Below are positions 9,750 to 58,668 of a stretch of DNA of 64,000 bases, in pieces (the stretch's first letter is position 1; the number at the start of each line of letters is the position of its first letter). The DNA is taken from positions 53,582 to 117,581 of the IMG/VR virus record IMGVR_UViG_3300021963_000047. One strand, 5' to 3'. The stretch comes from a virus. Below the pieces are notes generated by a model that was given only the letters and a program-made list of their open reading frames with translations, made no database searches and was not told the DNA's origin. Position numbers and translations under genes: made by a program.

Positions 9750-10331
9750 TTAGTATTCCTTACAATTTGGTAATAAGTTAGATATAGCTTTCATATTCTT
9801 TTCTGTAATATAGACACTCATTAAAACATGATAGATATCATCTGTAAAAGAAAATGATCCATGTACTTTTCTAGTATTAAGGATATAAGGAACTCCAGCT
9901 TTAAATTTTACCAATTTATCATCATAGATAAAGCACCATTCGTGTGTTTCAACTTTATTTAGAGGTATAAAAATTCTAAATTGTGGGTTTAATCCATACG
10001 CATCTCTATGCATCTTAAAATAAGAACCAGTATCTATCTTAACTGCCCGACATCTAGCTAAGTTTTCCCACTTATCAAAAAACTTTTTGATACTAGGACA
10101 ATCTAATAAATTTTGATTGTATGATTGATCTTGTTCATGCTTATTTTTATTTTCTAAACCAAGATCATCAATCGGTCCAGTAAGATTGATGGCACTTTTA
10201 CCATGCGTAGCAGGTATCCATGTATTTAAAGCTTGTAATTCTTCTATAGTATTATTATCAAACTTATAATCAAGTTCAATTATATCACCGTAAGCACTTA
10301 GTACACTTAACATACTTAATACTTCTGTCAT
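9750..10331 (-). CDS. Small 2OG-Fe(II) oxygenase-like protein, tandem relative
   Basis: 193 aa. H108-R-D110 (YFKMHRDAYG) and H157 (NTRKVHGSFSF) again form HxD...H. RIFIPLN and EWCFIYDDKLVKFKAGVPYILNTRKVHG match the core strands of asparaginyl-hydroxylase-like phage proteins. Its ATG overlaps the stop of the upstream small gene (4 bp), indicating one operon with the neighbouring sulfotransferase. The Asn-rich N-terminal half (residues 20-75) has no recognised domain. Substrate unknown. Confidence 0.55.
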   Translation of the reverse strand: MTEVLSMLSVLSAYGDIIELDYKFDNNTIEELQALNTWIPATHGKSAINLTGPIDDLGLENKNKHEQDQSYNQNLLDCPSIKKFFDKWENLARCRAVKIDTGSYFKMHRDAYGLNPQFRIFIPLNKVETHEWCFIYDDKLVKFKAGVPYILNTRKVHGSFSFTDDIYHVLMSVYITEKNMKAISNLLPNCKEY

Positions 10332-10549
10332 AATAAATCCTTTTTATGATGCTTAAATCTCTTGATCTCATTATAGATCTTCACGACAGTTTTAGGACCA
10401 TCTGAGATGTACCAACATGGAAATATTCCGTGAATATAAGATTTTAATGCAGCTTTAATAAGCCTATTACTTTGCATAAAAGAATGTTTTAAATGTTTCC
10501 AATAAGACCAGCCGGTGTCTTTTAAGTGTTGTTTTGATTCTTCAATCAT
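10328..10549 (-). CDS. Small DUF6356-like protein
   Basis: 73 aa. The segment HLKDTGWSYWKHLKHSF followed by KSYIHGIFPCWY resembles the small phage/proteobacterial DUF6356 proteins, which share H(L)--TG--YW-H--(F/H)(S/A) and an H-F/L-P-W/F segment. Function of that family is unknown. It has no signal peptide; one short hydrophobic stretch (IHGIFPCWYI) might contact a membrane. Coding overlaps both neighbours by 8 and 4 bp, so it is part of the sulfotransferase-hydroxylase operon. Confidence 0.45.
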   Translation of the reverse strand: MIEESKQHLKDTGWSYWKHLKHSFMQSNRLIKAALKSYIHGIFPCWYISDGPKTVVKIYNEIKRFKHHKKDLL

Positions 10550-11390
10550 TGCTCTTTATAGCTTTTAAATTTTTGTAATATCTAAGTTTTGATTTATAAC
10601 CTTCAGGACCATGTCGTTCTAATACATTTTCATAGTAATTTTTATTACTATGTTTTTTTGGATTATAAACACCAAGCATTGTCTTTGATATTCTTCTACT
10701 CACAGTTTTACTGAAAGATTGTTCTTTTCCATTAAGATTATATTCATCTACAAATTCATTGAATGAATCACTATTAATCTCTTTAAATTTTTTTGTTAAA
10801 GATAGATCGCCATATAATTCCATTATATCAAAATACTTATTCATCGGTATATTTTTTTCAGCAAAGAATCTAATTAGATGAGAATTTTCTTCTTTTATTT
10901 GTTTCTTCATTCTCTCATCATTTTCATACCAATTATATATTGGATAAGTTATATCCCACCCACCAATCACATGCCACCAATCGAAACATACATCATCCGG
11001 CAAATATACTGCTATGATTTTTGCAGCAGGAAATGTTTCTATTAAAAAATCTAGATTGTAAGAAAACCAATGTGACTTAACTACTTTGATTCCATCAAAG
11101 TTATCATAGGCACTTCTTATTTCGTGAAGTATCTCATCTTTACTGAGTTTATCTATCTTGTCAAATTTATGGCCAAACTGATGGTATGGTCCCCAATAAC
11201 ACCCTTTGTGCCAAGCTAATTTTTTAGATTCACCGGTTGTTTCATCATTAAGAATTACCGAAAAAGATCGATCTTCTTTTTCATCTGTTGTGTTTACATC
11301 AATATTATAAGATAAAGATCTTAAGACAGCAGACCATTTACTGCCGGGTGCGCCTGTAGCAAATATAATATCTTCACCATTATCCATCAT
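10542..11390 (-). CDS. Sulfotransferase-like protein
   Basis: 282 aa. The N-terminal IIFATGAPGSKWSAV corresponds to the 5'-phosphosulfate-binding loop of PAPS-dependent sulfotransferases. IKVVKSHWFSYNLDFL followed by FPAAKIIAVY matches the KSH--(Y/N)...-P-(A/S)KII-V pattern of the family, and DVCFDWWHVIGGWDITYP is shared with the two other copies in this window (16718 and 18060). It is first gene of the operon. It would transfer sulfate to a glycan, lipid or tyrosine acceptor; which is unknown. Two ATG codons start it (11390, 11387). The divergent fibre gene 11453 shares its 62-bp upstream region. Confidence 0.6.
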   Translation of the reverse strand: MMDNGEDIIFATGAPGSKWSAVLRSLSYNIDVNTTDEKEDRSFSVILNDETTGESKKLAWHKGCYWGPYHQFGHKFDKIDKLSKDEILHEIRSAYDNFDGIKVVKSHWFSYNLDFLIETFPAAKIIAVYLPDDVCFDWWHVIGGWDITYPIYNWYENDERMKKQIKEENSHLIRFFAEKNIPMNKYFDIMELYGDLSLTKKFKEINSDSFNEFVDEYNLNGKEQSFSKTVSRRISKTMLGVYNPKKHSNKNYYENVLERHGPEGYKSKLRYYKNLKAIKSND

Positions 11391-11406
11391 ACAAATCCCT
11401 GAGTTT

Positions 11407-11414
11407 TATAAATA
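11407..11414 (+). promoter_or_regulatory. T4-type late promoter (TATAAATA)
   Basis: An exact TATAAATA octamer lies 38 bp upstream of the fibre gene at 11453, in the only gap between the divergent operons. T4 late promoters consist essentially of this octamer, recognised by gp55, whose homologue is encoded at 37915. On the opposite strand the same spot reads TATAAAAC, a poor match, so minus-strand firing from here is uncertain. Confidence 0.75.
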
Positions 11415-11452
11415 GAATAAATAATCAAAAATAGGGGAAAGGGAACCTATTC

Positions 11453-11752
11453 ATGGCAGATAAAGCATTTATAGTCAAAAATGGCTTGATCGTTAATACC
11501 AATCTTATTTATACTTCTGGTTCAAATGTTGGTATTATGACTACCAACCCGAATGCAGTTTTAGCTGTTAATGGTACGGCAAACGTCAGTGGAGCAGTTT
11601 ATTTTGGCAACTCATTGACCGTAGCAGCAAATATTACTGTTGGTTCTGTGGGTATAAATACCAGTATGGTTGCTATATCTTCTTCAAACGTCATGACCTA
11701 TAGCACAACTTTGAAAGTATATTACGCAAATAATACACAAGCTTTTCCATAA
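11453..11752 (+). CDS. Short fibre-type protein with MADKAFIVKNGL start
   Basis: 99 aa. The start MADKAFIVKNGLIVNTN is the signature N terminus of tail-fibre/structural proteins in marine T4-like phages. Later segments (VGIMTTNPNAVLAVNGTANVSG, AVYFGNSLTVAANITVGSVGINTS) resemble the neck repeats of endosialidase-type fibres. A strong purine-rich RBS (AGGGGAAAGGG) and a TATAAATA late promoter precede it. It is far shorter than the usual fibres that begin this way. It could be a small adaptor, or a truncated remnant whose distal part was replaced; no frameshift is apparent. Confidence 0.6.
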   Translation: MADKAFIVKNGLIVNTNLIYTSGSNVGIMTTNPNAVLAVNGTANVSGAVYFGNSLTVAANITVGSVGINTSMVAISSSNVMTYSTTLKVYYANNTQAFP

Positions 11753-11772
11753 TTTATGTTTAAGGTGCATTA

Positions 11773-12879
11773 ATGGCAAGACCACTTAAAATAGACTCTT
11801 CAACATCTCCAGCTTCTATTAAAGAGATGACTGATGCAGACTATGATTATACAACACACATAGTATTAACTCAGTTCGCTGCGACAAATACTGGTGTTGG
11901 TACTTTATCATCTAATAATTCTTTTACATTGATTGGAACATTTTCTGATACATATAGACCGTACACTGTTGGTCAGCATCCTATTGGCACAGATATTACT
12001 ACGGTAACTTATAATTTTTATCAAGATCTTACTACTGCATCAGAATCATTAACAAGACCAATACATTATGATTCAGGAACAAAAGAACAAGATGATACAA
12101 CTTTAAATACAACTGTTATAGCAAATGCACTATCAAATCTAGTGAACTATGGCGTAGGAAGTTATTCACTATCACCGACAACTCCAGTTGGTGGAACTTG
12201 GATTGCAGAAAGAACTATTCAAAATACAACAGCTGCTGCTAACAATGCCACGTATCTTTGGAGAAAAACTTCTGCAACAAGTCCAACAACTGTTAGACCA
12301 TTAAAACTTAATACAACATCACCAGTTTCAGTAAAAGAAATGAGTGATGCAGAAATAGAAACATTAACTTCTAGATTAAGAAACAGAATAGTTGATACCG
12401 GTATTGGCAAATATGCAGTGCAAGCTTCTGCGCCAGTTTCTGGTGGAACATGGGTAACTAGAGGTTCAGCATTTTCTGATACTAGAGAAACAACATCTAC
12501 TGAATCATATACTGGCACTTATACTGGTTCATTCTCTGGCACATATTCTGGCGCATATACCGGTACATATACAGGCAATTACACAGGCAATTATACCGGT
12601 AGCTATTCACAAGCTTTTACTGGTAATTACACTGGGTCATACACTAGATTTTTTGCTGGATTTATAGGTGGTTATTATAGTGGTACGTATACTGGATATT
12701 ATACAGGAACTTTTACTGGAACATATGCTGGAACGTATACTGGTAATTATACAGGAAACTATACTGGAAACTATACAGGTTCATTCTCTGGTGGTTATTC
12801 AGGTTCATACTCTGGTTTAACATTAAATGCAACTACAGAAACCGTTTCTACGGTATCGTTATGGGTGAGGACAGCTTAA
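11773..12879 (+). CDS. Putative fibre protein with Y-T-G-x tetrapeptide repeats
   Basis: 368 aa. It carries two copies of a motif RPLK(I/L)...SP(A/V)S(I/V)KEM(T/S)DA(D/E), at residues 3-24 and near 177-197, each starting a globular unit. From about residue 246 to 348 the chain is almost pure (Y/F)(T/S)G-x tetrapeptides, with one interruption (RFFAGFIGGYY). This implies an elongated, regularly stacked beta structure capped by a short C-terminal strand region. It sits between two small fibre-region genes and is probably co-transcribed from the late promoter at 11407. Role as a fibre or spike is inferred from composition and context. Confidence 0.6.
   Translation: MARPLKIDSSTSPASIKEMTDADYDYTTHIVLTQFAATNTGVGTLSSNNSFTLIGTFSDTYRPYTVGQHPIGTDITTVTYNFYQDLTTASESLTRPIHYDSGTKEQDDTTLNTTVIANALSNLVNYGVGSYSLSPTTPVGGTWIAERTIQNTTAAANNATYLWRKTSATSPTTVRPLKLNTTSPVSVKEMSDAEIETLTSRLRNRIVDTGIGKYAVQASAPVSGGTWVTRGSAFSDTRETTSTESYTGTYTGSFSGTYSGAYTGTYTGNYTGNYTGSYSQAFTGNYTGSYTRFFAGFIGGYYSGTYTGYYTGTFTGTYAGTYTGNYTGNYTGNYTGSFSGGYSGSYSGLTLNATTETVSTVSLWVRTA
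12508..12816 (+). repeat. Tandem 12-bp coding repeat (Y-T-G-x)
   Basis: About 25 tandem 12-bp units of the form TAT-ACT-GG(N)-NNN encode (Y/F)(T/S)G-x. The x position is mostly Thr, Asn or Ser. Units vary at synonymous positions, so the array is old enough to have diverged, but some consecutive units are nearly identical, which would favour slippage or unequal recombination. Confidence 0.85.
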
Positions 12880-44431: not shown

Positions 44432-44968
44432 GTGAATATATTCTACATTGATACAGATCCTGTAAAAGCTGCGCAAGGCATGGTAGATAAACATGTCGTT
44501 AAGATGATCTTGGAATCTGCACAGCTTTTATCTACTGCACACCGTTTGCTTGACGGTACACAGATCGAAGGCACATCTAAGACTGGCCGTAAAGCTAAGC
44601 GCTGGATCTTGCATGATGGCCGTCAAGATGTATTATATCAAGCTACACATATTAATCATCCATCTGCAGTATGGTGTCGACAGTCAGTAGAAAACTACTC
44701 CTGGCTCGTCGAACATTTCTATGCTCTTATGGCTGAATACACACATCGCTATACTAAAAAACATGCATGTAATGGTGATCTAAGCTATATGCTTCAGTCA
44801 CCTCCACATAAACTTAAAGATTATGATTGGACTACTATGCCATCTGCTATGGCCGATGAATATAAAATTAGCGATGACCCATTAACAAACTATAGAAACT
44901 ATTATAAGATTGGTAAAGCCACTATGCATAAGTGGACCAATCGCCAACCGCCGGAGTGGATTATATGA
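44432..44968 (+). CDS. Conserved phage protein, function unknown
   Basis: 178 aa, GTG start preceded by GGGAG. The opening MNIFYIDTDPVKAAQGMVDKHVVKMILESAQLL is strongly conserved in many large dsDNA phages, where it is usually annotated as hypothetical. The pattern includes HINHPSAVWCRQSVENYSWLVEHF and a late YRNYYKIGKA--HKWTNRQPPEW. It is helical with many His and Trp residues. The neighbourhood (MazG-like, thymidylate-synthase-family and deaminase genes) suggests a link to nucleotide or DNA metabolism, but this is context only. Confidence 0.65.
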   Translation: MNIFYIDTDPVKAAQGMVDKHVVKMILESAQLLSTAHRLLDGTQIEGTSKTGRKAKRWILHDGRQDVLYQATHINHPSAVWCRQSVENYSWLVEHFYALMAEYTHRYTKKHACNGDLSYMLQSPPHKLKDYDWTTMPSAMADEYKISDDPLTNYRNYYKIGKATMHKWTNRQPPEWII

Positions 44969-45363
44969 GTAAAGACTGGGCTTTTGATATTGCTATGATG
45001 CACGAGAAGTATGGCGTCCATCCTGTTATTGAGAAGATGGATGCTGATACTCTCAAGAAATTTCTTGAGTTTAGAGTACGATTCTTGGAAGAAGAACTTA
45101 CTGAACTTAAGAATGCTACCAATGCAGATGATGTTGTAGATGCACTTATTGATCTATGCGTTGTTGCTATTGGGACACTTGATGGCTTTGGTGTTGACTC
45201 TCATAAAGCATGGGATGCAGTACTTGTAGCTAACATGAATAAAAAGGTTGGGGTTAAAGAATCACGTCCTAATCCTCTTGGTTTGCCAGACCTTATTAAG
45301 CCAGAAGGTTGGACTGCTCCGTCACATGCCGATAATGAAGGCAAACTTAAAGAGATCTTCTAA
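44965..45363 (+). CDS. MazG-like nucleotide pyrophosphohydrolase
   Basis: 132 aa from the ATG overlapping the upstream stop (ATGA); an ORF start at 44932 is internal to the previous gene. FRVRFLEEELTEL and ADDVVDALIDLCVVAIGTL supply the E-x-x-E and D-x-x-D metal-binding helices of all-alpha NTP pyrophosphatases. The distal part (MNKKVGVKESRPNPLGLPDLIKPEGW) is a typical phage version resembling phosphoribosyl-ATP pyrophosphohydrolase-like proteins. It may clean unwanted dNTPs or alter (p)ppGpp pools; in a modified-DNA phage, removal of canonical dNTPs is a possible role. Confidence 0.7.
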   Translation: MSKDWAFDIAMMHEKYGVHPVIEKMDADTLKKFLEFRVRFLEEELTELKNATNADDVVDALIDLCVVAIGTLDGFGVDSHKAWDAVLVANMNKKVGVKESRPNPLGLPDLIKPEGWTAPSHADNEGKLKEIF

Positions 45364-45961: not shown

Positions 45962-46369
45962 ATGACTGACCGCCATTCCGTACAAGTTCTGAGTGAATGC
46001 ATTGCTTTGCAGAATGCAAAAGCAAATGATTACCAGAATAAAAACTCTCGTATCCTGCAAGCAGATTACTACACTAACGGTTGTGCAACTATCCATGATA
46101 TTATGCATGGTAAAATGCTTCGTATGCAATCTGTTATGGAAGCTATGCAAAATGATCCTAACTATGCTCCTAACTTTGAATCCCTTGAAGATTCTGCTAA
46201 AGACTTGATTAACTATGGATCATTCTTTGTTGCGTATCTTCGTGGTAAGGTTGAAGGTCAACGCCCTGATCGCGACTTCCTCAATCGCAAGATCAATGTT
46301 TCAGAGACTACACAGTCTAATGTCAACCAGTATGGCATCATGACTGCATCTATTACCGCTGGAGAATAA
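45962..46369 (+). CDS. Nmad1/DUF1599-like protein
   Basis: 135 aa. LQNAKANDYQNKNSRILQADYY, TIHDIMHGKMLRMQSVMEAMQNDPNY and FESLEDSAKDLINYGSFFVAYLRGK resemble the nucleotide-modification-associated domain 1 family, an all-helical domain found beside thymidylate-synthase-like enzymes in phages. The family name reflects genomic association rather than a proven reaction. Here it directly precedes the thymidylate-synthase-family gene, supporting the association. AGGAG RBS precedes the ATG. Confidence 0.6.
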   Translation: MTDRHSVQVLSECIALQNAKANDYQNKNSRILQADYYTNGCATIHDIMHGKMLRMQSVMEAMQNDPNYAPNFESLEDSAKDLINYGSFFVAYLRGKVEGQRPDRDFLNRKINVSETTQSNVNQYGIMTASITAGE

Positions 46370-46372
46370 TAG

Positions 46373-47029
46373 ATGCATATGAGAAACACCGTTGAAGATA
46401 TCAGGCAACACTTCAAAGAGCTTCTTCGTCAGAAGATCTTTGTTACTGATAAGACAGGTGTTAAGATGATTGAACTCGTCGGCGCAAACTTTGTTGCCGA
46501 CGAGAAGGCCATCTTTGGCAATGTTAACTACGATTACGTAGAGCGTGAACTCGAATGGTATGAGTCAATGTCTCTTAATGTCAATGATATTCCCGGTGGC
46601 CCTCCTGCTATCTGGAAACAAGTAGCAGATAGTCAAGGATATATCAATTCAAATTATGGTTGGTGTATCTGGTCTCCAGAAAACAATTATCAGTTTGAAC
46701 ATGTTAAGCGCGAATTGCAGAAAAATCCTGAATCGCGCAGAGCAACTATGATCTATACACGCCCTGAGATGTGGAAAGATTATAACTTTGATGGTAGATC
46801 TGATTTTATGTGTACTAACGCAGTACAATACATGATTAGACGTGATGCTCTTCATGCCGTTGTACAGATGCGTTCTAATGATGTAGTATTTGGATATAAG
46901 AATGATTATGCATGGCAATCTCACGTTCTTGATTTGTTGTGTCTTGAACTTGGTGTACAACGTGGTGATATCCATTGGAATGTTGGTAGTCTTCATGTTT
47001 ATGAACGTCACTTTGATCTAGTAAAATGA
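46373..47029 (+). CDS. Thymidylate synthase-fold enzyme, dCMP hydroxymethylase-like
   Basis: 218 aa. It has catalytic Cys147 in DFMCTNAVQ, RSNDVVFGYKND (168-178) and VGSLHVYERH (205-214), all aligning to TS motifs (PCH--FQF, RS-D---G-P-N, GD-H-Y). At the position of the TS Asn that binds the uracil ring (E. coli N177), this protein has Asp178. Asp at that site is what dCMP hydroxymethylases such as T4 gp42 use, so the substrate is more likely dCMP than dUMP. His after the Cys is replaced by Thr. It would make hydroxymethyl- or methyl-dCMP. Residue assignment is by hand alignment. Confidence 0.7.
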   Translation: MHMRNTVEDIRQHFKELLRQKIFVTDKTGVKMIELVGANFVADEKAIFGNVNYDYVERELEWYESMSLNVNDIPGGPPAIWKQVADSQGYINSNYGWCIWSPENNYQFEHVKRELQKNPESRRATMIYTRPEMWKDYNFDGRSDFMCTNAVQYMIRRDALHAVVQMRSNDVVFGYKNDYAWQSHVLDLLCLELGVQRGDIHWNVGSLHVYERHFDLVK

Positions 47030-47493
47030 TTATACACAAGTGGGATAAACGTTATCTTCAACTAGCAAAAAGCATTGCGCAGTGGTCTAAAGATCCTAGC
47101 ACAAAGGTTGGAGCTGTGACTGTTGGCAATCAAGGTCAAATACTTTCGCAGGGTTATAATGGTTTCCCACGAAATATCAAAGATACACCCGATAGACTAA
47201 ATGATAGACCAACAAAATTGAAATATGTAGTTCATGCAGAGATGAATTGCATATACAATGCTTGTCTTAATGGTGTGTCTTTAAAAGACTCTGATCTGTA
47301 TGTTTATGGTTTGCCTGTCTGTTCTGACTGTGCAAAGGGTGTCATACAGGTTGGAGTTAAACGCGTTATCATGTGTTATCCAGTAGAAATTACTGATAGA
47401 TGGCAAGCATCTTTTGAAGATACATCTAAGATGTTCTCTGAAACAGGTATAACATTTAGTACATATGATGAAAAACGTATTGAACTTTCTTGA
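47026..47493 (+). CDS. cd: dCMP deaminase
   Basis: 155 aa. Zinc-dependent deaminase motifs HAEMNC (His70, Glu72) and LPVCSDC (Cys99, Cys102) are in place, with WSKDPSTKVGAVTV and SQGYNGFPR as in dCMP deaminases. It converts dCMP to dUMP for thymidylate synthesis; a phage with a dCMP-modifying enzyme would need to balance both. Overlaps the TS-fold gene by 4 bp and the next gene by 29 bp. Confidence 0.92.
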   Translation: MIIHKWDKRYLQLAKSIAQWSKDPSTKVGAVTVGNQGQILSQGYNGFPRNIKDTPDRLNDRPTKLKYVVHAEMNCIYNACLNGVSLKDSDLYVYGLPVCSDCAKGVIQVGVKRVIMCYPVEITDRWQASFEDTSKMFSETGITFSTYDEKRIELS

Positions 47494-47872
47494 AGACCAT
47501 GTCATTTCTGATGACATCATTATATTAGGTCAATGCCCGTCCAGTAAAACTCAGCCATTTAAGAATGGTACGTTTGCTAGACTTAAATCATGGTGTGATG
47601 AAGTTGGTCTTAAAGCATGGGATTTTCATAACGTTATTCCTGATAAGATCAACAGTTATTCTATTGCAGATGTTAATAGCGATCTTTTAATCACACGTAC
47701 AAAAAATAAAAAGAAAGTTATTGCTCTTGGTGGCTTTGTTAGTCGTGTGTGCACTAAATACAAAATCGATCACTTCAAGATTGATCATCCATCTCCACGA
47801 AATCGTAATCTAAATGATAAAGATTATGAAAAAGCAATGATTGAAAGATTAAGAACTTATGTCAACACTTGA
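47465..47872 (+). CDS. Uracil-DNA glycosylase superfamily-like protein
   Basis: 135 aa. IIILGQCPSSKTQPFKNG resembles the N-terminal water-activating GxxPG motif and IDHPSPRNRNLND the C-terminal HPSP-R-N loop of UDG-fold proteins. VIALGGFVSRVCTKYKI gives the strand-helix before it. It is small for an active UDG (usually about 200 aa), so it may be a reduced or repurposed member. Placement between dCMP deaminase and a putative base-modification gene suggests excision or recognition of particular bases. Two ATGs (47465, 47468) start it. Confidence 0.5.
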   Translation: MMKNVLNFLEDHVISDDIIILGQCPSSKTQPFKNGTFARLKSWCDEVGLKAWDFHNVIPDKINSYSIADVNSDLLITRTKNKKKVIALGGFVSRVCTKYKIDHFKIDHPSPRNRNLNDKDYEKAMIERLRTYVNT

Positions 47873-49022
47873 AACAACAGAGTATTATGATGAGTACATC
47901 AGATATTTCAACCTTGCAAAAGACCAACAGGCTAAATGCAATCTCGGTACGATACCATACAAAGACTCCTGCATGGACGATGATTTACTTGAGAACGTCG
48001 AGCTCTACGATGTTGTTGAGCGAAAGTTTGCAGGATTCTCACAAATCGTTAACGACGTATTTTACGGATGGACACCGGGACATCCTTACTGGCATAAAAT
48101 GGAAGCAGGATATCACACTCGACAACGTGAGACTGTAGCCAAAGACTGGACAGGTAAACACTCAGATTTTAAATTACCAGAATGGCTTTATATTTTTATT
48201 CTACACAGAGTTTGTGGTTCTGGCATTAATTATTCATATAAGCCATCTGGTTATCATAATACTATTTTATTCAATCTTCACAATTGCAGAACCATTGAAG
48301 AAATGACTAAGATGGTGAATAATTATCCAACGTCATTTTATACTTCGGTAGGATATCAGTTTCCACAGTTTCCAAAACCACCGGCTGGATATAAAAGAGC
48401 AGGTGATTATTATCTCACTGAATTTGCACCTAGACTTGCAAGAGATTTGGCTGAATTCTTAGAAAAGAGTAATGCTAAGAAAGATCTTCGTGAGATCGGC
48501 GACTTCATGTTGAAGTGGAATGTAGTAAATGGTCTTAAACAATATCATTTTCAGTATGCAGCAGTAGTTGCAGATATTGCCGATTGGTATCCAGAATATG
48601 TTAATAAAGAAAGTCCTTTCTATTATGGCTCAAATGCTGTAGAATGTATTTCTTATCTTGCAGTGAATACTAAGAAGATGAAGCAAGAACAGTTCTTAGA
48701 TTCAGTTATGGAAAAGATATATGAAGACACTGGTGCATATCCATATAATGCAGAAGATGTTTGCTGTGACTTCATTCGTTGGGTTGAAAACTATATAAAG
48801 CCGGGTGCAGATTATGATCACCTCGATCGTGATGCTATTTGGTCTTCTTGTAGAATCAAAGATCATCCGTTTGGTCGTCAAAAAGCAATGTTGACTCTTG
48901 GTCTTGTTGATTCTTTCAATAGGATTAATTGTCATCCTGCAGATAGCTATGTATTAGATATGCATGGTATGAGTGTCAAAGAATATAAGCAAAAGGTTAA
49001 AGAACTTGAACTCGTTAGCTGA
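47859..49022 (+). CDS. Unknown; possible aGPT-pyrophosphorylase/amino-acid:DNA transferase relative
   Basis: 387 aa, predominantly helical with many Trp, Tyr and His. IFILHRVCGSGINYSYKPSGYHNT, DIADWYPEYVNKESPFYYGSN and DTGAYPYNAEDVCCDFIRW are the striking segments. The R-x-x-GSG / GYxNT combination and the helical HhH-like feel recall enzymes that attach amino acids to pyrophosphorylated hydroxymethyl-pyrimidines in hypermodified phage DNA. This is a weak resemblance from memory, not an alignment. Context (TS-fold enzyme upstream, PLP enzyme downstream) fits such a role. Confidence 0.4.
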   Translation: MSTLETTEYYDEYIRYFNLAKDQQAKCNLGTIPYKDSCMDDDLLENVELYDVVERKFAGFSQIVNDVFYGWTPGHPYWHKMEAGYHTRQRETVAKDWTGKHSDFKLPEWLYIFILHRVCGSGINYSYKPSGYHNTILFNLHNCRTIEEMTKMVNNYPTSFYTSVGYQFPQFPKPPAGYKRAGDYYLTEFAPRLARDLAEFLEKSNAKKDLREIGDFMLKWNVVNGLKQYHFQYAAVVADIADWYPEYVNKESPFYYGSNAVECISYLAVNTKKMKQEQFLDSVMEKIYEDTGAYPYNAEDVCCDFIRWVENYIKPGADYDHLDRDAIWSSCRIKDHPFGRQKAMLTLGLVDSFNRINCHPADSYVLDMHGMSVKEYKQKVKELELVS

Positions 49023-49026
49023 ATTC

Positions 49027-50010
49027 ATGACAGATCGTACAAATGATATTAAGTACGATAATCTTACCGAAGTAGATTTAGATGATGCTGGTAAACCCAC
49101 GCGTAGCTGGATGTGGAAGTGGTCTCAAGCAGAACGTACAGAAAAGTTCTTCGAGTTTTGTAATGCTTATGATAAGAGAGAAGACAGCCTATTAAGAGAT
49201 AACTATCAACAGTTCTCGCATCGCTTACATTGGGATGAATGTCCATTCGTTGATGAAGTTAAATTGATAAATGATCCGCAGACAGTATTAGAAGCATGCT
49301 TGATCTTTTCATTTACTAATGAACATTGGCAAACTTTTAGAGCGTGGCGTGAGGGTGGTGTTGATGCTATGCGCAAGAGATTCTTAACAGAACGACACGC
49401 CCGCAGCGATCTATTTCAGATCTATTATCCAAAAGATACTAACGTTAAAGAATGGCTATGTGAAGTACCAAAGGATTTTGCAAAGAAACATGTAGATCAT
49501 CTCTTCGCTGGTAGTACAACGTTGCGCGATAGACCATATACGATGATGGAATTTGCTAAGAAACTAAATGAGATATTTGTTAATGAATATAGATTTAGAA
49601 ATGCTATGTATCCGTCTAAGAATGCAGCTAGACATGTTGCAATGACTCATACTCATTGGGTTGATCCTGAAAGTTTCTTGCATGGTGGTACTGGTTTTTT
49701 TGATGGCCTTAGTCAAGTGTTTGACTGTCCTCAGTATATGAGCAAGGCAAAGTATGAGATTGCAGAAGATGGAAGATATGTACCAACAAACAATGCTGGT
49801 CAATCTTTCTATGATAAGATGTTATATCTCTATGATTATCCTAGCAACCCTATTAAACGTCAGACATTTCTAAACTTAGAAGATAAACTTTGTTTCTTCT
49901 ATAAGCATTTAGCTATTAGAAATGGTATTAAACAAACTACTAAACAGATCCCATATGATTGGGTGTATCCTAAAAACTGGTCATTGAAGACAAATACATA
50001 TGAGTCATAA
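49027..50010 (+). CDS. Unknown, possible partner or paralogue of the preceding protein
   Basis: 327 aa from the ATG at 49027; the longer frame from GTG 48973 lies in the previous gene. WMWKWSQAERTEKFFEFCNAY opens a helical protein. SFTNEHWQTFRAWREGG and AARHVAMTHTHWVDPESFLHGGTGFFDGL are notable. The latter resembles in spacing the DWYPE...FYYGSN segment of the upstream product, so both may share a fold. No catalytic assignment. It overlaps the PLP gene by 11 bp and is part of the same tightly packed run. Confidence 0.45.
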   Translation: MTDRTNDIKYDNLTEVDLDDAGKPTRSWMWKWSQAERTEKFFEFCNAYDKREDSLLRDNYQQFSHRLHWDECPFVDEVKLINDPQTVLEACLIFSFTNEHWQTFRAWREGGVDAMRKRFLTERHARSDLFQIYYPKDTNVKEWLCEVPKDFAKKHVDHLFAGSTTLRDRPYTMMEFAKKLNEIFVNEYRFRNAMYPSKNAARHVAMTHTHWVDPESFLHGGTGFFDGLSQVFDCPQYMSKAKYEIAEDGRYVPTNNAGQSFYDKMLYLYDYPSNPIKRQTFLNLEDKLCFFYKHLAIRNGIKQTTKQIPYDWVYPKNWSLKTNTYES

Positions 50011-50869
50011 TAAACACGTAATAGATGGCATTAACAAAGATGTTGGTGTCTTTGGATATGAAGCTGCTAAAGAATATTATCTTTCTTTGGCAGAAGGATG
50101 GATTCCATATAATCCAGATCCTGTCGTAATTGATCACGATGGTGTTAGAGTTGTTCGAGACGATCTAATCGTAGGCACAAAAACTAGAGCCGGCGATCTT
50201 CTTGCTTCGAAGCTAAATCACGACACTATCGTATATTCACAACCACGCGTTGGTTTGGCTGGTGTTTCTTTGCTTGATGTAGCTAAACACCATAATAAGA
50301 AGATTGTTTTGTTTATGCCGGCATCTAAACGTATATCATTGCATCAGGCTTGCTGCATTGAACAAGGTGCTATACCAATCTTTGAACGTATTGCTGCTAT
50401 GCCAATCTTAAATATGAAAGCAAAAGAGTGGGCAGAAAAGAACAACGCTTTCTTTGTACCTCTTGGTTTGAAACATGAACTTGCTACTGCAGGAATTGTA
50501 CACGCTGCGTCAAAGATTCCTGAGCCAGACGAAGTGTATGTAGCTATCTCTACTGGTGTTCTTTCACGAGCCCTTCAGATTGCATGGCCAAATGCAAAGT
50601 TTAACTGTGTTGCAGTTGCGCGTAATCTTAAACAAGGTGAACTTGGTAGAGCAAATGTTATATCAGAACCTCTTGAGTTCGCACAAGAAGAGACAGAGCT
50701 ACCGCCATTTCCTACAGTAAAGTCTTATGATGCTAAAGTGTGGAAGTATATTCCAAAGAATTCTGGACGAAACGTATTGATGTGGAATGTTGGCACCGAG
50801 CCACAGTTGACAAATTTGAGTCTTTATGATACTGTTAAATCTTATAAAGATTGGGATAAAAATCTATGA
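50000..50869 (+). CDS. Fold-type-II PLP-dependent enzyme (ACC deaminase/cysteine desulfhydrase-like)
   Basis: 289 aa. VVRDDLIVGTKTRAGDLL matches the KREDL--GGNKTRKLEYL region of ACC deaminase/D-cysteine desulfhydrase, placing the PLP-binding Lys at K61. YSQPRVGLAGVSLLDVAKHHNKKIVLFMPAS corresponds to the following phosphate-contact and Rossmann-like strand. EVYVAISTGVLSRALQIAWP resembles the later Gly-rich PLP phosphate loop. It would act on an amino acid or an amino-acyl group. PLP enzymes are known components of thymidine hypermodification pathways in some phages; here that role is inferred from neighbours. Confidence 0.6.
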   Translation: MSHNKHVIDGINKDVGVFGYEAAKEYYLSLAEGWIPYNPDPVVIDHDGVRVVRDDLIVGTKTRAGDLLASKLNHDTIVYSQPRVGLAGVSLLDVAKHHNKKIVLFMPASKRISLHQACCIEQGAIPIFERIAAMPILNMKAKEWAEKNNAFFVPLGLKHELATAGIVHAASKIPEPDEVYVAISTGVLSRALQIAWPNAKFNCVAVARNLKQGELGRANVISEPLEFAQEETELPPFPTVKSYDAKVWKYIPKNSGRNVLMWNVGTEPQLTNLSLYDTVKSYKDWDKNL

Positions 50870-51957
50870 CAGCAGTTTTAACCGCTCCTTTCATTCCTAT
50901 TGCTAAGAATCTTTCTTCACATCGTGCAGCGCAGGGTGTGATTTATGCCGATCAGCTCAAGCAAGCTGGTGTTGACGTTTATGTTAATATGTCTCTAGAT
51001 CGTTATATAGAAGATCATAATACATTTGATACCATGTATGTCTATCATGGTAACGACTGGTCAGGTCATCTTAATTTGTTTGGCGGACTAAAAGAATTTC
51101 CACATGTGGATAATTTCTTGAATTTCTCTAAGTTTAAGGGTAAAGTCTATTCATTGATTATAGATTTTCCTGACTACTATGAGCAACTCAAACATAAAGT
51201 AGATCTCGCTAATAGTAAGAACAAACCAATCGATCCTCGTTGGAATCAGGTCGATTGGAATAATATTATTCGTATGCAAAAGGAAGCTGTAACTATTACA
51301 CCAAATCTTTTGAAGGTATACCCAAATATTGCAATTGGTGATAGTCATGCTATCTGCATGTATCGACCTGGATGGGTAAACTATTCTATCCCATTTAAAA
51401 CTCTTCATGGCGCATTGAAAATGGGTCTTAAAAGTTTTATTAAACCTAGCGATCATGATTTTGAAAATATAGAGTTTTATTTTGGTAATATTGATGTTCG
51501 TCATCATCTTCTGCGTCAACCAGATCCTGTAGTTGCTACTAAAGAAATAGTTAAAGAATATACACAACAGGCTCTTGAAGTCGCAAAGATGTATAATGCC
51601 ACTGTTACTCTTTATGAACTTCTTCCTATCGAAAATGAGAAGCGTCATATTCCTAAGACAGGTTGGTATGAAAAAACACCATTCTTCGGATCTCGTGTTG
51701 AACGTGATAATATTCGTAAACTCTTTAAGCAAGAACTGAAGAAGTATGAATGTGAATCTCTTCGTGTATTCGAATGGGTTGACGGTCTTATTAATGAACA
51801 TGGCGAGTTAGATTTTAAATACATGGAGAAGCCACAATCAGTGCATCTTTCTAGAGAATTTTATCCACATTGGCAAGGTTGGGAGTGGAATGGACTTAAA
51901 CCTCCTATAAATAAACCAGCTAAAGTAAATCATGCCAGCCTTGAGAGTTTTATATGA
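50866..51957 (+). CDS. SGNH-hydrolase-like protein of the modification locus
   Basis: 363 aa. IAIGDSHAICMYRPGW (near residue 157) has a block-I-like GDSH, and FYFGNIDVRHHLL (near 206) resembles the block-III G-x-N/D region. SVHLSREFYPHW near the C terminus could hold the late His. The N-terminal 150 residues, with SSHRAAQGVIYADQLK and VYVYHGNDWSGHLNLFGG, look like a separate alpha/beta domain. It overlaps both neighbours by 4 bp. The fold call is moderate; possible roles are acyl or glycosyl transfer linked to base modification. Confidence 0.45.
   Translation: MTAVLTAPFIPIAKNLSSHRAAQGVIYADQLKQAGVDVYVNMSLDRYIEDHNTFDTMYVYHGNDWSGHLNLFGGLKEFPHVDNFLNFSKFKGKVYSLIIDFPDYYEQLKHKVDLANSKNKPIDPRWNQVDWNNIIRMQKEAVTITPNLLKVYPNIAIGDSHAICMYRPGWVNYSIPFKTLHGALKMGLKSFIKPSDHDFENIEFYFGNIDVRHHLLRQPDPVVATKEIVKEYTQQALEVAKMYNATVTLYELLPIENEKRHIPKTGWYEKTPFFGSRVERDNIRKLFKQELKKYECESLRVFEWVDGLINEHGELDFKYMEKPQSVHLSREFYPHWQGWEWNGLKPPINKPAKVNHASLESFI
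51906..51913 (+). promoter_or_regulatory. Possible internal late promoter before the C5-MTase gene
   Basis: An exact TATAAATA occurs inside the upstream gene, ending 40 bp before the ATG at 51954. The spacing matches the confident late promoters in this window, but it also encodes part of a Pro-Ile-Asn-Lys stretch in a region with no other late genes, so it may be chance. Confidence 0.25.
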
Positions 51958-53153
51958 GACATGCGACGATTATTCCGCTTATTGGCGGAGAAGCAATTGC
52001 TTCAACTAATGTGTTTGGTAGTCGACCAGATTACATCCTTTCTTACAGCGCATTTAAAGATAACGAATCTCATCTTCTAAACTACTGGGATCATGAAGTC
52101 CCGTACTATGTTTTAGATGAGGGTCAACGTCATCCTCATGAAGTAGATGTTATTTCTAGCGTTTGTCCATGTGCTGGTCTTTCTATGTTTTCTTTGGGAT
52201 ATGGTGAACATAATCCTAATAATAAATGGATGATTGAAACCGCAAAATATGTTCTTGGAGAAGTAAAGCCAAAAGTATTTTGGGGTGAGAATGCTCCTGC
52301 TCTTGCAGGCAAAGTAGGCAAGCCAATCAGAGAACAGCTGCAACAAATTGGCAAAGAGAATGGCTACACCATGACCCTCTATCGTACTAAGAGTTTGCTT
52401 CATGGTGTTCCACAAGTTAGAGAACGTACATTCTATTTCTTCTGGCGTAGTAATAAAACACCATTGCTAAACTTCTATAGCCGCGAATACGAAAAGATTG
52501 AAGACGTCATCACTGGTGTAAAGTCAAACACAATGATGGAACCAATCAATAAAAACACACCAAGCAAAGATCCATACTATCGTTATCTTCTTGAAGTCAT
52601 TCATGGTGGTGTAACCCATCGCGAGCACTTCGATCTCTTAGATCTTAGAGATATTGCAGTTAGATATTTTGATGCTAAGTCATTGATTGAGCATCATAAT
52701 CATTCATATCTGCAAGTAGGTGAATGGATGCAAAAGCAAGGTTATGAGAAAGAAGTTGAGAAGTGTAAGCGTATGCATGAAAAACTTGCATCTGGTGGTA
52801 ATATCATGAGACGTGGTACTATCGTTCCTAAGGATCATATTGGTGCATTTGTCGGTCATTATCCTAAGATGCTTACACATCCATATGAAGATAGATACAT
52901 TACTTACAGAGAAGCACTCAGTATCATGGGAATGCCTGAAGACTATGAGCTTCTAAAACCGACTGTAAGTTATAATCATATCTGTCAAAACGTTCCCGTC
53001 AAGACTGCGACTGATATGGCTACAGAAGTCAAAGCGGTATTAGACGGTGAAAGAGACTATGTTGACAATTTCATGGTATATCAATATAATCATGATCGTA
53101 CTAATGAAATTACAAGCACAAAGACTAGCACACTAGTGGAGTATTTTAATTAA
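51954..53153 (+). CDS. C5-cytosine DNA methyltransferase homologue
   Basis: 399 aa. Motif IV is SSVCPCAGLSM (catalytic Cys73), motif VI is WGENAPAL (Glu112-Asn113), motif VIII is QVRERTFYFFW and a motif X-like NVPVKTATDMATEV is near the end. Motif I is degenerate (IPLIGGEAIAS), so SAM binding may be altered. The target-recognition region includes EHHNHSYLQVGEWMQKQG and GGNIMRRGTIVPK. It may methylate cytosine in a specific sequence, or act on C5 in another way in the modification pathway. It overlaps its neighbours by 4 and 1 bp. Confidence 0.75.
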   Translation: MRHATIIPLIGGEAIASTNVFGSRPDYILSYSAFKDNESHLLNYWDHEVPYYVLDEGQRHPHEVDVISSVCPCAGLSMFSLGYGEHNPNNKWMIETAKYVLGEVKPKVFWGENAPALAGKVGKPIREQLQQIGKENGYTMTLYRTKSLLHGVPQVRERTFYFFWRSNKTPLLNFYSREYEKIEDVITGVKSNTMMEPINKNTPSKDPYYRYLLEVIHGGVTHREHFDLLDLRDIAVRYFDAKSLIEHHNHSYLQVGEWMQKQGYEKEVEKCKRMHEKLASGGNIMRRGTIVPKDHIGAFVGHYPKMLTHPYEDRYITYREALSIMGMPEDYELLKPTVSYNHICQNVPVKTATDMATEVKAVLDGERDYVDNFMVYQYNHDRTNEITSTKTSTLVEYFN

Positions 53154-53437
53154 TGGAACCACAATTTAAGTTTAATGAACCAGAACTAATTAATGAATTG
53201 TATCAGTATGTCGCTGATACATATACTAAGCATTATGTTGGACCAGATAATATTCAGGCTTTCGAACTAATTGCTTCAGCGGGTCACGGTGTTGGGTTCA
53301 CCATCGGTGACATTATTAAGTATGCTGCCAGATATGGCAAGAAAAATGGTAGGAATAGACAGGATCTTATGAAGATACTTCATTACGGTATTCTTGCACT
53401 TTATATTCATGATAAGGAGAATAATAATGGAAATTAA
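53153..53437 (+). CDS. DUF3310-like small protein
   Basis: 94 aa. NIQAFELIASAGHGVGFTIGDIIKYAARYGKKNGRNRQDLMKILHYGILAL resembles the DUF3310/SaV-like family of phages: an all-helical domain with the pattern F--G--IKY--R-G-KNG--(D)L-K---Y. That family's biochemical role is not established. It starts on the last base of the C5-MTase gene and overlaps the upstream region of the glycosyltransferase, including that gene's AAGGAG. Confidence 0.65.
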   Translation: MEPQFKFNEPELINELYQYVADTYTKHYVGPDNIQAFELIASAGHGVGFTIGDIIKYAARYGKKNGRNRQDLMKILHYGILALYIHDKENNNGN

Positions 53438-54266
53438 AATTCACACAGACGAACTTAGGAAGTGCAAGCTATTTGTTGCTACACCTATGTATGGTGGTCA
53501 ATGTGCCGGCATGTTTGCTAGAAGTGTAGCAGATTTGTCTGCTCTTTGCACTCATCATGGTATTCCTCTTCAAATGTATTTTTTGTTCAATGAATCGTTG
53601 ATTACAAGAGCAAGAAACTATTGTGTAGATGAATTCATGAGATCTGACGCTACACATATGTTGTTTATTGACTCTGACATTGGATTTAATCCTCAAGATG
53701 TTATTGCGCTATTGGCCCTTCAGCAACAGAATGAAGAATACGACGTAATTGGCGGTCCTTATCCTAAGAAGTGTATCTCATGGGAAAAGATCAAACATGC
53801 AGTTGATAAGGGTGTTGCTGATAAAGATCCTGGTATCCTTGAAAAGTTTGTTGGTGACTATGTCTTCAACCCTAAGAGTGGTACAGGTGCTATCCCGATT
53901 GGTGAACCTGCCGAAGTTCTTGAGATTGGAACTGGCTTCATGATGATTCGTCGTAAGACATTTGAAGTATTCAATGAGAAGTTCCCGCAGTATCTCTACA
54001 AGCCGGATCATGTTAGAACTAAGCATTTTGATGGATCTCGCAAGATCATGATGTATTTCCAAGCTGAAGTAGATCCTAAGTCTGAGCGTTATCTCTCTGA
54101 AGATTATTGGTTCTGTCAAAAGCTACAGGAAGCAGGTCTTCGTACATGGCTATGTCCTTGGATGCAGCTACAACATGTTGGAACTTATATTTTCGGTGGT
54201 TCACTCGCAGATCTTGCATCTATTGGTGCTTCTGCAACTGCCGATGCTGATCAACTTAAAAAGTAA
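53427..54266 (+). CDS. GT-A glycosyltransferase next to the clamp gene
   Basis: 279 aa from the ATG after AAGGAG; the longer frame from 53394 is rejected. KLFVATPMYGGQCAGMFARS opens the nucleotide-binding fold, HMLFIDSDIGFNPQDVIAL (near residue 80) carries the DxD motif, and EIGTGFMMIRRKTFE with LSEDYWFCQKLQEAG match family-2-like enzymes. It is well conserved in marine T4-like phages and lies just before gp45, so it is expressed with DNA-metabolism genes. Glycosylation of a hydroxymethylated base is an attractive but unproven role; protein or glycan acceptors remain possible. Confidence 0.7.
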   Translation: MEIKIHTDELRKCKLFVATPMYGGQCAGMFARSVADLSALCTHHGIPLQMYFLFNESLITRARNYCVDEFMRSDATHMLFIDSDIGFNPQDVIALLALQQQNEEYDVIGGPYPKKCISWEKIKHAVDKGVADKDPGILEKFVGDYVFNPKSGTGAIPIGEPAEVLEIGTGFMMIRRKTFEVFNEKFPQYLYKPDHVRTKHFDGSRKIMMYFQAEVDPKSERYLSEDYWFCQKLQEAGLRTWLCPWMQLQHVGTYIFGGSLADLASIGASATADADQLKK

Positions 54267-55890: not shown

Positions 55891-56246
55891 ACCCATTTGA
55901 TTATGTAAACTCTATAAACTCTTCTAAGAAAGAGAACCTCATGGTCGATGAGGTTGCAGAAAAAGCTTACAACCCGTGGTTAGTAAACAAGGCGTTATCT
56001 TATTTTAAAGATACCGTCTTGTATGCTAATGAGATTAATATGCATCCACATCTTTCTAACAGGATGCAATATGATTATTATCTTCATGCTATTAAACCCG
56101 GAAAGAGATATTCTAAATGGGCAAAATCTACAGAGAACGAAGACATAGAATTAATATGTGAACTATTCAATTATAATAAGACAAAAGCTAAAGCAGCTTT
56201 AAAACTAATAGACAAAAAAGAACTAGAGAGATTTAGAAAAAAATGA
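55887..56246 (+). CDS. 62: Clamp loader small subunit gp62
   Basis: 119 aa, shorter than T4 gp62 (187 aa) but typical of marine relatives. MNPFDYVNSINSSKKENLM, YNPWLVNKALSYFKDTVLYANEIN and NRMQYDYYLHAIKPGKRYSKWAK are conserved family segments. It is the single non-ATPase subunit of the loader. Position between gp44 and an oxygenase gene, then regA, agrees with the T4 order. Confidence 0.9.
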   Translation: MNPFDYVNSINSSKKENLMVDEVAEKAYNPWLVNKALSYFKDTVLYANEINMHPHLSNRMQYDYYLHAIKPGKRYSKWAKSTENEDIELICELFNYNKTKAKAALKLIDKKELERFRKK

Positions 56247-57343
56247 TGTTAAGCTCAAAAGATGCCCTCTCATCAAAGTTAAAGTTAGATAAAGATACTA
56301 TACTTGTTATTGATGATTTTCATGTTGAAGATGATTATAAAGAACTACTAAACGTGTTAGATAATACATCTTATACGAGCGGGTGGAAATCTAATAAAAG
56401 AACGGATCCTCACGGGCATTGGAATAAAAATTATGTTGAAGGTGTTAAATCTGGTTCTTCAAATTTAGCAGAAGTAAGTAATAATATTCCTGAACTTCAA
56501 AAAAGAATATGGAAAAAATTAAAAGATAGATATAATCTACATGATATGGTCTTATTGAGATGTTATGTCAATGCACATACATATGGTGTAGACGGTTATA
56601 TACACTCTGACTCTCATAGAGATGATGAGTGGACAGTTGTCACATATATGAATGAAACATGGGATCCCAACTGGGCAGGTGAGACTATACTAGTTGATGA
56701 TAATAATGAGATTATTAAATCAATATTACCAAAAAGAAATAGAGCTATCATATTTCCGGGCAAAATGAAGCACGCAGCTCGTGGTGTTTCTAGAATGTGT
56801 CATGAACTTAGAAGAACATTTATGTTTAAGTTTAGAGCAAAAAGAGACGAGAACTTTGAAAAGTTAAGTTCTTTCTTGATTAGTGTAGGTGCTAATAAAC
56901 ATAAGCATAGTAGAGGAAGTCTACATGATCATTTGGTAAGAAATTATACTATTTTAAAAGAAAAAGGATGTGACTTAGATCTATGTTATGCAGCAGGTCT
57001 GCATTCTATCTTTGGGACAAATGCTTTTAGTAAAACTGTGTTAAGTCATGAACAATCTGAATTGGTAAGAGATAGCTTCGGCGAAAAAGCAGAGTCGTTA
57101 GCACTAATGTTTGGAATGATAGAAAGACCTAAAACTCTGGAGACACCAGAAGAGATTGGTGATGATCATGTTATGGTATTGATGAGAAACGGAGATCTTC
57201 ACCCAATTTCTAAGACCATGTTTAAGAATCTAAGACTTATGGAATGCGCTAATCTTATAGACCAAAAGGGCCTTAAACCTGATAGACATCAAAATCTTAT
57301 ATCTGTATGGGAAAGCTTTGTCCCTGAGCTTGAATCTGAATAA
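56243..57343 (+). CDS. 2OG-Fe(II) oxygenase fused to an HD-like helical domain
   Basis: 366 aa, two domains. Residues 1-200: GYIHSDSHRDDEWTVVTYMNE with H121-x-D123, WAGETILVDD, then FPGKMKHAARGVSRMCHELRRTFMFKF giving the distal His177 and Arg191, a prolyl-hydroxylase-type 2OG oxygenase. Residues 217-366: SRGSLHDHLVRNYTILKEKG and LCYAAGLHSIFGTNAF, a helical His-rich domain of the DUF6817/HD-like type. Such fusions occur at this position in marine T4-like phages. Substrate unknown. It overlaps gp62 by 4 bp, so it belongs to the replication operon. Confidence 0.7.
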   Translation: MMLSSKDALSSKLKLDKDTILVIDDFHVEDDYKELLNVLDNTSYTSGWKSNKRTDPHGHWNKNYVEGVKSGSSNLAEVSNNIPELQKRIWKKLKDRYNLHDMVLLRCYVNAHTYGVDGYIHSDSHRDDEWTVVTYMNETWDPNWAGETILVDDNNEIIKSILPKRNRAIIFPGKMKHAARGVSRMCHELRRTFMFKFRAKRDENFEKLSSFLISVGANKHKHSRGSLHDHLVRNYTILKEKGCDLDLCYAAGLHSIFGTNAFSKTVLSHEQSELVRDSFGEKAESLALMFGMIERPKTLETPEEIGDDHVMVLMRNGDLHPISKTMFKNLRLMECANLIDQKGLKPDRHQNLISVWESFVPELESE

Positions 57344-57795: not shown

Positions 57796-58668
57796 ATGTT
57801 TAAATTATTTGATGTAATTAGCAATTTCGTAACCCTTAAAAAAGGTAAAGCAAAAGAAATTGTAATTGGTAAAAAAGGTAGAGTATCACCTAGATATGGC
57901 AATGAGCTTCTCTGCGCAAGATACTATAATGAAGATGAGAGTCATTATATAGATCTTTATGTGCCTTTAAAAGGACCATTAGGTGTATGGATGAGTGGTG
58001 GTGCTGATAGTAGTATGTTAGCATTTTTATTGGCTAAAACAATAAAAGATTATAATTTAGATGTTAAAATATTGCCTATGAGTTTTAAGAGAGATGATAA
58101 ACCTTGGAATATGTGGGTAGCTACAAATATAGTAGAAAGAATAGAAGAAATACTTGATATAAAAAAGGGTGAGATATTTTTAAATCATAATTATTGTTAT
58201 TTTGGTGACTATAAATCAAAAGAGTTCTTACCAAAATTACGTAAGCATGTTGAAAGCTTAAAAGACAATAAGTTGATTACTATTTGTTACACTGGATTAA
58301 CTAAAAATCCAGAAGATATTCCTGAAGATATGATCGAATCTAGAGAATTTTCTAGAGATGAACCGGCAAAAAAAATATTAGAAGAAAAAGATGAATATAA
58401 AGAAGAATTGATTATTTCAATACCATTCTTATTTCAAGATAAAAAGTTTATAGCTGGTTTATATAATAAATTAGGTTTAATGGAAAAATTATTTCCATAT
58501 ACTAGATCATGTGAAAATGTTATTCATAATACTGATTTTTTTAAAACGTCTTGTGGTAAGTGTTGGTGGTGTAAAGAAAGAAAATGGGCATTTGGTAGTT
58601 ATACAAAAGATCCACTAAAACATATACAACCATCAAATAAAATAATAAGATCGTGTGTAGCAGTATAA
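57796..58668 (+). CDS. QueC-like PP-loop protein (7-deazaguanine type)
   Basis: 290 aa. GVWMSGGADSSMLAFLLAK (near residue 65) is the PP-loop ATP-binding motif. CENVIHNTDFF then TSCGKCWWCKERKWAFGS gives the four-Cys zinc site with C--C--R--AF seen in 7-cyano-7-deazaguanine synthases (QueC). Such enzymes convert carboxy-deazaguanine to preQ0, used for tRNA queuosine or phage DNA deazaguanine modification. No queD, queE, folE or DpdA-like gene is visible in this window, so the substrate could also be different. It lies where T4 has gene 43. Confidence 0.6.
   Translation: MFKLFDVISNFVTLKKGKAKEIVIGKKGRVSPRYGNELLCARYYNEDESHYIDLYVPLKGPLGVWMSGGADSSMLAFLLAKTIKDYNLDVKILPMSFKRDDKPWNMWVATNIVERIEEILDIKKGEIFLNHNYCYFGDYKSKEFLPKLRKHVESLKDNKLITICYTGLTKNPEDIPEDMIESREFSRDEPAKKILEEKDEYKEELIISIPFLFQDKKFIAGLYNKLGLMEKLFPYTRSCENVIHNTDFFKTSCGKCWWCKERKWAFGSYTKDPLKHIQPSNKIIRSCVAV

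Follow-up and report, generated by a model that had tools for sequence, protein, structure and literature searches.

Amino-acid hypermodification of phage DNA has so far been described for thymine, and the decorations described for cytosine are sugars and carbamoyl. The cassette of M6-type phages comprises a pyrimidine hydroxymethylase, Nmad5, aGPT-Pplase1, a kinase, a radical SAM (rSAM) enzyme, a pyridoxal phosphate (PLP) enzyme and aGPT-Pplase2 (PMC9476957), a listing with which the Pfam assignments of the M6 genes agreed. In T4-like phages, hydroxymethylcytosine usually ends up carrying sugars (PMC6024577; PMC12838424), and a PRA-PH domain co-occurs with a thymidylate synthase-fold (TS) enzyme in experimentally modified contigs (PMC8670742). 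Here we analysed a stretch of 64,000 nucleotides (the window; positions 53,582 to 117,581) of the 117,581-base virus record IMGVR_UViG_3300021963_000047, which belongs to a T4-like virus of bacteria. Ten open reading frames (ORFs) fill positions 46373-54266 of the window and are directly followed by homologues of T4 genes 45, 44 and 62 (the clamp genes). They encode a TS enzyme, two helical proteins (P4 and P5), a PLP enzyme and P7, a protein with a segment resembling the T4 beta-glucosyltransferase (BGT), together with accessory proteins (Table 1). We propose that this locus is probably a cytosine version of thymidine hypermodification, working on 5-hydroxymethylcytosine (5hmC), with a chemistry that we infer from its genes.

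The TS enzyme fits T4 dCMP hydroxymethylase much more closely than it does any thymidylate synthase, and falls within the T4 gp42 family (E=2.5e-84 to 1b49; RSNDVVFGYKNDYAW; Pfam 7e-18; phrog_160 3e-59). Its motif FGYKNDYAW carries an aspartate at the position of T4 D179, where thymidylate synthase has asparagine, and the dCMP-type active site that had been read in the first-pass annotation thus holds. This catalytic aspartate was present in all 52 readable TS copies of the related cassettes described below; the M6-type TS family shows GAxGAN at the same position, and this dUMP-type signature was not found in the cassette enzyme. Because the TS is of the gp42 type and has kept its aspartate, the base synthesised would, as shown by homology, be 5hmC. 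A Tet/JBP oxygenase, as an alternative source of 5hmC, was not found in 10 records, nor was a T4-type dNMP kinase (DNMK) in 8 records.

P4 and P5 had been annotated as unknown helical proteins; no sequence family took them in, and confident AlphaFold models placed both, tentatively and at fold level, with the aGPT-PPlase superfamily. In Foldseek searches of BFVD the top matches were proteins 75% (P4) and 66% (P5) identical to the queries; these orthologues are named "Amino acid:DNA transferase domain-containing" in UniProt, a name whose ground was not checkable. Next came two uncharacterized phage proteins, strong matches in the case of P4, and the orthologue of the respective other protein. 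The named superfamily members matched by P4 and P5 were the HMUDK_hel protein of PhiW-14, aGPT-Pplase1 and the SP10 5-hydroxymethyldeoxyuridine (5-hmdU) DNA kinase (prob 0.97-1.00), the last two being among the matches of P5; proteins of these three kinds made up most of the named high-probability matches after the orthologues. P4 and P5 also turned up among each other's weak matches when local ORFs were searched with hmmsearch. A C-terminal E-x3-C-x-[FWY] motif, spotted by eye and hence post hoc, is present in 90/95 P4 and 52/94 P5 sequences, in 50/55 ADDT and 33/54 HMUDK_hel sequences, and in 12 of 948 background ORFs. Kinship of P4 and P5 with the amino acid:DNA transferase/HMUDK-helical (aGPT-PPlase) superfamily is likely. 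Homologues of P5 were also seen alone, with no TS, P4 or PLP gene nearby (L057 and L061).

The PLP enzyme, whose fold-II label was borne out, is related to the M6 gp52 family (hhalign 97.7%, E 1.5e-12), and its Lys61 is invariant. We take M6 gp52 to be a PLP decarboxylase acting on DNA. It is this kinship, together with the folds of P4 and P5, that leads us to read the locus as one of amino-acid hypermodification. The nearest PLP homologues from isolates, in Erythrobacter and Microcystis phages (L211, L212 and L213), are parts of genes labelled DNA modification methylase or adjoin ParB/sulfiredoxin genes.

P7 aligned to T4 BGT over 48 columns only, around an NFFGG segment (hhalign E=2.4e-4), and matched phrog_7922 (0.0085). 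Among 24 P7 homologues, the Pfam family T4-Gluco-transf was matched by eight (best 0.007) and Lipase_GDSL by two (best 0.0038), the latter below the cut-off, with one homologue at 16.7 bits where the cut-off is 23.6; the earlier SGNH-like label is weakened to this extent, and the GDSH motif is invariant in P7. Homologues of P7 occur in Aeromonas T4-like phages, including the isolates 31 and 25, both of which also encode gp42 homologues 58% identical to the window TS. In Aeromonas phage 31 (L108, 7965-10388) the P7 homologue continues, at its C-terminal end, into a fused domain with a match to HMUDK_hel, the helical domain of 5-hmdU DNA kinases (E 4.5e-4), and this fusion, in a phage possessing a gp42 homologue, argues for hypermodification of 5hmC. 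The P7 homologue of phage 25 (L109) is shorter and unfused. A search for the PLP gene in phages 31 and 25, which had no positive control, was empty.

Using P4 or P5 as query we found 154 loci in IMG/VR and in a small number of genome contigs, 95 of them distinct by a 300-base signature and 42 with enough flank, so that the counts describe the company of P4/P5 rather than an unbiased sample of phages. Thirty of the 42 well-flanked cassettes are TS-linked (clamp-linked); TS is present in all 30 by definition of the type, the PLP and P7 genes are found in 30/30 and P5 in 28/30. The remaining 12 form a TS-unlinked type, mostly in the order P7-P4-P5-PLP, with P5 in 12, P7 in 11 and PLP in 10; no clamp genes lie nearby and the gene for the GT-A-like protein is absent. 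In three TS-unlinked records, TS-like genes also have the aspartate (YGLT[YF]DAP, FGFCND). Gene order varies within the clamp-linked type too, and since gene content stays constant through this reordering, the genes would serve one shared pathway. The conserved core is formed by TS, P4, PLP, P7 and, in most cassettes, P5. The UDG-like (18 of 30), deaminase (16) and methyltransferase (12) genes are optional, and the GT-A (28), DUF3310 (24) and clamp genes (gp45 in 27) are neighbours dispensable to the core. Upstream, the 45962-like gene accompanies all 30 clamp-linked cassettes, and a MazG-like gene lies within 8 kb of P4 in 28.

The P5 family covers at least 405 IMG/VR stretches, and neither P4 nor P5 was found by tblastn in 50,697 phage records, which suggests a pathway that is frequent in nature but that the isolates searched lack. 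The cassette set is widespread and apparently undescribed. A scan of genome contigs yielded four contigs of metagenome-assembled genomes, from four unrelated taxa, from which no host was inferred.

In the pathway that we envisage, the gp42-type TS would convert dCMP to 5-hydroxymethyl-dCMP, the step for which homology speaks directly, and the MazG-like enzyme, aided in some phages by the dCMP deaminase, would clear the canonical deoxycytidine nucleotides so that 5hmC enters DNA. To judge by their fold and by the genes that accompany them, P4 and P5 may then activate the 5-hydroxymethyl group of 5hmC post-replicatively, in DNA, and swap in an amino acid or another amine. By its homology with M6 gp52, the PLP enzyme could trim or remodel this amino acid once it is attached, decarboxylation being one example, or else make it, and P7 might put another group onto the modified cytosine or take one off. 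Three proteins, the UDG-like one, the methyltransferase homologue and the GT-A-like one, would either refine the pathway optionally or simply be neighbours. The product would shield phage DNA against host nucleases. Tentatively, and with somewhat less confidence than in the hypermodification of 5hmC as such, we suggest that this may be the first amino-acid-based hypermodification of cytosine, in which a PLP enzyme and a pair of divergent aGPT-like transferases act on a base activated without the known 5-hmdU kinase family, and a chimeric BGT/SGNH-like enzyme acts on the same base.

Several observations weigh against amino-acid hypermodification of 5hmC. No family of Pfam, PHROGs or NCBIfam matches P4 or P5 above chance; the Foldseek matches to superfamily members have E values of 1e-3 to 0.3 and TM scores of 0.35-0.57 despite their high probabilities, and the P5 model found no significant solved structure in the PDB. 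Sequence searches of the PDB likewise gave nothing significant for P4, P5, P7 or the PLP enzyme. PF18724 and PF18723 matched none of 19 P4 and 18 P5 homologues (E<1), PF18724 was absent from 11 cassette records in a search with M6 as positive control, and the top hmmsearch matches of the P4 and P5 models among local ORFs were not enriched for ADDT or HMUDK_hel. Using M6-derived and broadened alignments, hhalign linked neither protein to ADDT or HMUDK_hel; this is a weak negative, since hhalign also missed the kinship of ADDT with HMUDK_hel (E 0.02), and reversed-alignment decoys scored alike. Activation is the chief gap in the pathway, as no HMUDK P-loop kinase was found: PF18748 had no match at E<=1 in any of 11 cassette records in a search that recovered the M6 control, covered records that may be fragments and did not include the window record, and none of the Walker-A ORFs of the latter, whose motifs were listed by pattern, was conspicuous as an HMUDK-like kinase. 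None of the M6-type kinase, rSAM, ADDT or HMUDK_hel lies near any of the 42 well-flanked cassettes. Finally, P5 is missing from some cassettes, and some TS-unlinked records, which may be fragments, have no TS match, or in one case a canonical ThyA only.

The same genes can be read otherwise. Ordinary T4-style glycosylation, with gp42 making 5hmC, P7 and/or the GT-A-like protein adding sugars, and P4, P5 and the PLP enzyme being unrelated, would agree with the local matches of P7 to BGT and phrog_7922 and with the usual outcome in T4-like phages; we consider it unlikely, as the BGT match is so short, TS-unlinked cassettes lack the GT-A gene, and the PLP, P7 and P5 genes are nearly constant in a core that moves jointly through different orders and whose P4/P5 folds and PLP kinship indicate amino-acid hypermodification. 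A small-molecule or amino-acid metabolic module, unconcerned with DNA modification, could explain the PLP, P4, P5 and P7 block, given that fold II PLP enzymes usually serve amino-acid metabolism and that the nearest isolate homologues lie in or adjoin ParB/methylase-annotated genes. The linkage to gp42 and the clamp genes, the fusion of P7 to HMUDK_hel in phage 31 and the fold matches of P4 and P5 make such a module very unlikely. The gene classes are those of M6 (TS, deaminase, two aGPT-like proteins, PLP enzyme), as expected of hypermodified 5-hydroxymethyluracil (5hmU) in the manner of M6 and ViI, with the TS using dUMP supplied by the deaminase; this is highly improbable for a gp42-type TS with aspartate in place of GAxGAN, in cassettes of which little more than half carry the deaminase and where HMUDK kinase and radical SAM were not found. 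Carbamoylation of 5hmC, as in MetaGPA, shares the company of TS, PRA-PH and deaminase (PMC8670742), and a carbamoyltransferase-family gene was seen in three TS-unlinked cassette records; neither the window's record nor its 167-kb relative gave a carbamoyltransferase match, and we hold this reading to be extremely improbable. Amino-acid hypermodification of 5hmC is thus the reading that we prefer.

Table 1. Genes of the cassette and its surroundings (positions in the window; UDG, uracil-DNA glycosylase; counts out of 30 refer to clamp-linked cassettes).
Feature	Position	Strand	Evidence and remarks
MazG-like nucleotide pyrophosphohydrolase (PRA-PH)	44932..45363	+	PF01503 E=1.2e-6; candidate dCTP-pool cleaner, function predicted
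Small protein, function unknown	45962..46369	+	in 30/30
TS: dCMP hydroxymethylase, T4 gp42 family	46373..47029	+	phmmer vs PDB 1b49 E=2.5e-84
dCMP deaminase, optional	47026..47493	+	PF00383 6e-21; 16/30
UDG-superfamily-like protein, optional, candidate glycosylase	47465..47872	+	PF03167 E=8e-4, below cut-off; 18/30
P4: helical, fold-level relative of amino acid:DNA transferase/HMUDK-helical	47859..49022	+	AF2 pLDDT 89.8, Foldseek BFVD
P5: another helical protein, probably of this superfamily	48973..50010 (likely start 49006)	+	AF2 pLDDT 87.1, Foldseek BFVD
PLP: enzyme of fold type II, homologous to gp52 of phage M6	50000..50869	+	phrog_7093 1e-36
P7: T4 BGT-resembling segment and GDSH/SGNH-like part	50866..51957	+	hhalign, Pfam on homologues
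C5-cytosine methyltransferase homologue, altered motif I, optional	51954..53153	+	PF00145 1.3e-19 from residue 61; 12/30
DUF3310 protein	53153..53437	+	PF11753 1.9e-11
Putative GT-A-like protein (phrog_1574), clamp-gene neighbour	53427..54266	+	phrog_1574 2.8e-61; weak Pfam glycosyltransferase matches below cut-off

The ten consecutive, mostly overlapping plus-strand genes of the first-pass annotation were confirmed; neighbours are adjacent or overlap by 1-50 bases, the ORF ends being mechanical. All ten have a dN/dS of 0.016-0.124 against the closest long relative (L002), which indicates real genes rather than chance ORFs. P5 more likely starts at TTG 49006 than at GTG 48973, its homologues beginning with MNxL, and the GT-A gene at ATG 53427, behind AAGGAG, rather than at TTG 53394. 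The deaminase, methyltransferase and DUF3310 labels were retained. The UDG-fold and GT-A labels lost ground, the best Pfam match of the latter (0.004) lying below the cut-off and phrog_1574 being a family of unknown function. As for the upstream pair, the MazG-like gene stood and the Nmad1-like one received no Pfam confirmation.

The first half of phrog_18404 matches the MazG-like gene and its second half the small protein gene at 45962-46369. Adjoining the MazG-like gene, at 44432-44968, is a member of the DenV-like pyrimidine dimer glycosylase family (PF03013, phrog_624). The UDG-like protein could, as a prediction, remove 5hmU arising by deamination of 5hmC. In the methyltransferase homologue, PLIGGE (PLIGGEA/V) replaces the FxGxG of motif I in 9/9 aligned sequences, which thus lack this signature of S-adenosylmethionine binding, and the window protein retains the catalytic PC, EN and QxRxR motifs. 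C5-cytosine methyltransferases are able to exchange groups on 5hmC without S-adenosylmethionine. A role of this putative methyltransferase in 5hmC chemistry is conceivable, for a gene present in a minority of cassettes.

Further downstream, 57796-58668 encodes a QueC-like PP-loop protein (PF06508 1.4e-5, phrog_1550), found in few related cassettes, that could relate to deazaguanine chemistry. The gene at 56243-57343, seen in four compared loci only, encodes a 2-oxoglutarate-Fe(II) oxygenase fused to DUF6817, and its first part matches phrog_274, labelled DNA endonuclease V. In one TS-unlinked cassette (L062, 11857-14137) a GT2 glycosyltransferase and a UDP-galactopyranose mutase come after the PLP gene, and a phage record (G000, 8238-12353; L184) holds two ORFs resembling, by eye, the TctA and TctC parts of a tricarboxylate transporter.

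In summary, a base hypermodification locus, as initially proposed, is the best-supported reading of these genes, and the pathway is one that we infer. The gene combination matched no described system among those searchable, and our search of the open-licence literature turned up no account of cytosine being modified by an aGPT/PLP pathway; as subscription papers and most preprints lay outside this search, the novelty is provisional. If true, the pathway would provide a new class of amine-chemistry DNA bases, of interest for the evasion of restriction and CRISPR as well as for enzyme tools directed at 5hmC.

Among known systems, the locus resembles T4, with its gp42 and glucosyl-5hmC-forming BGT, in the clear gp42 homologue, the BGT-like segment of P7 and the clamp genes close by, whereas P7 is otherwise unlike BGT. 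To our knowledge, the PLP enzyme, P4 and P5 have no counterpart in T4. With RB69 (arabinosyl-5hmC) and Shewanella phage Thanatos (pentosyl-cytosine) it has in common T4-like phages, a gp42-type enzyme and cytosine as the modified base, here as a prediction; there, activated sugars and glycosyltransferases are used, while here the fold class of an amino-acid pathway would dominate. The MetaGPA contigs with a 5hmC carbamoyltransferase (PMC8670742) also bring together TS, PRA-PH and dCMP deaminase in phages with modified cytosine, but the window's record has P4, P5, PLP and P7 instead of a carbamoyltransferase. M6 and SN1 share with it a pyrimidine hydroxymethylase, a homologous PLP enzyme, clustering with replication genes and, probably and here by fold only, a pair of proteins of the aGPT-Pplase class. 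In contrast to these phages, the hydroxymethylase here is of the dCMP type, no HMUDK kinase or radical SAM is detectable, P4 and P5 are far removed in sequence from the ADDT and HMUDK_hel families, and P7 is an additional component.

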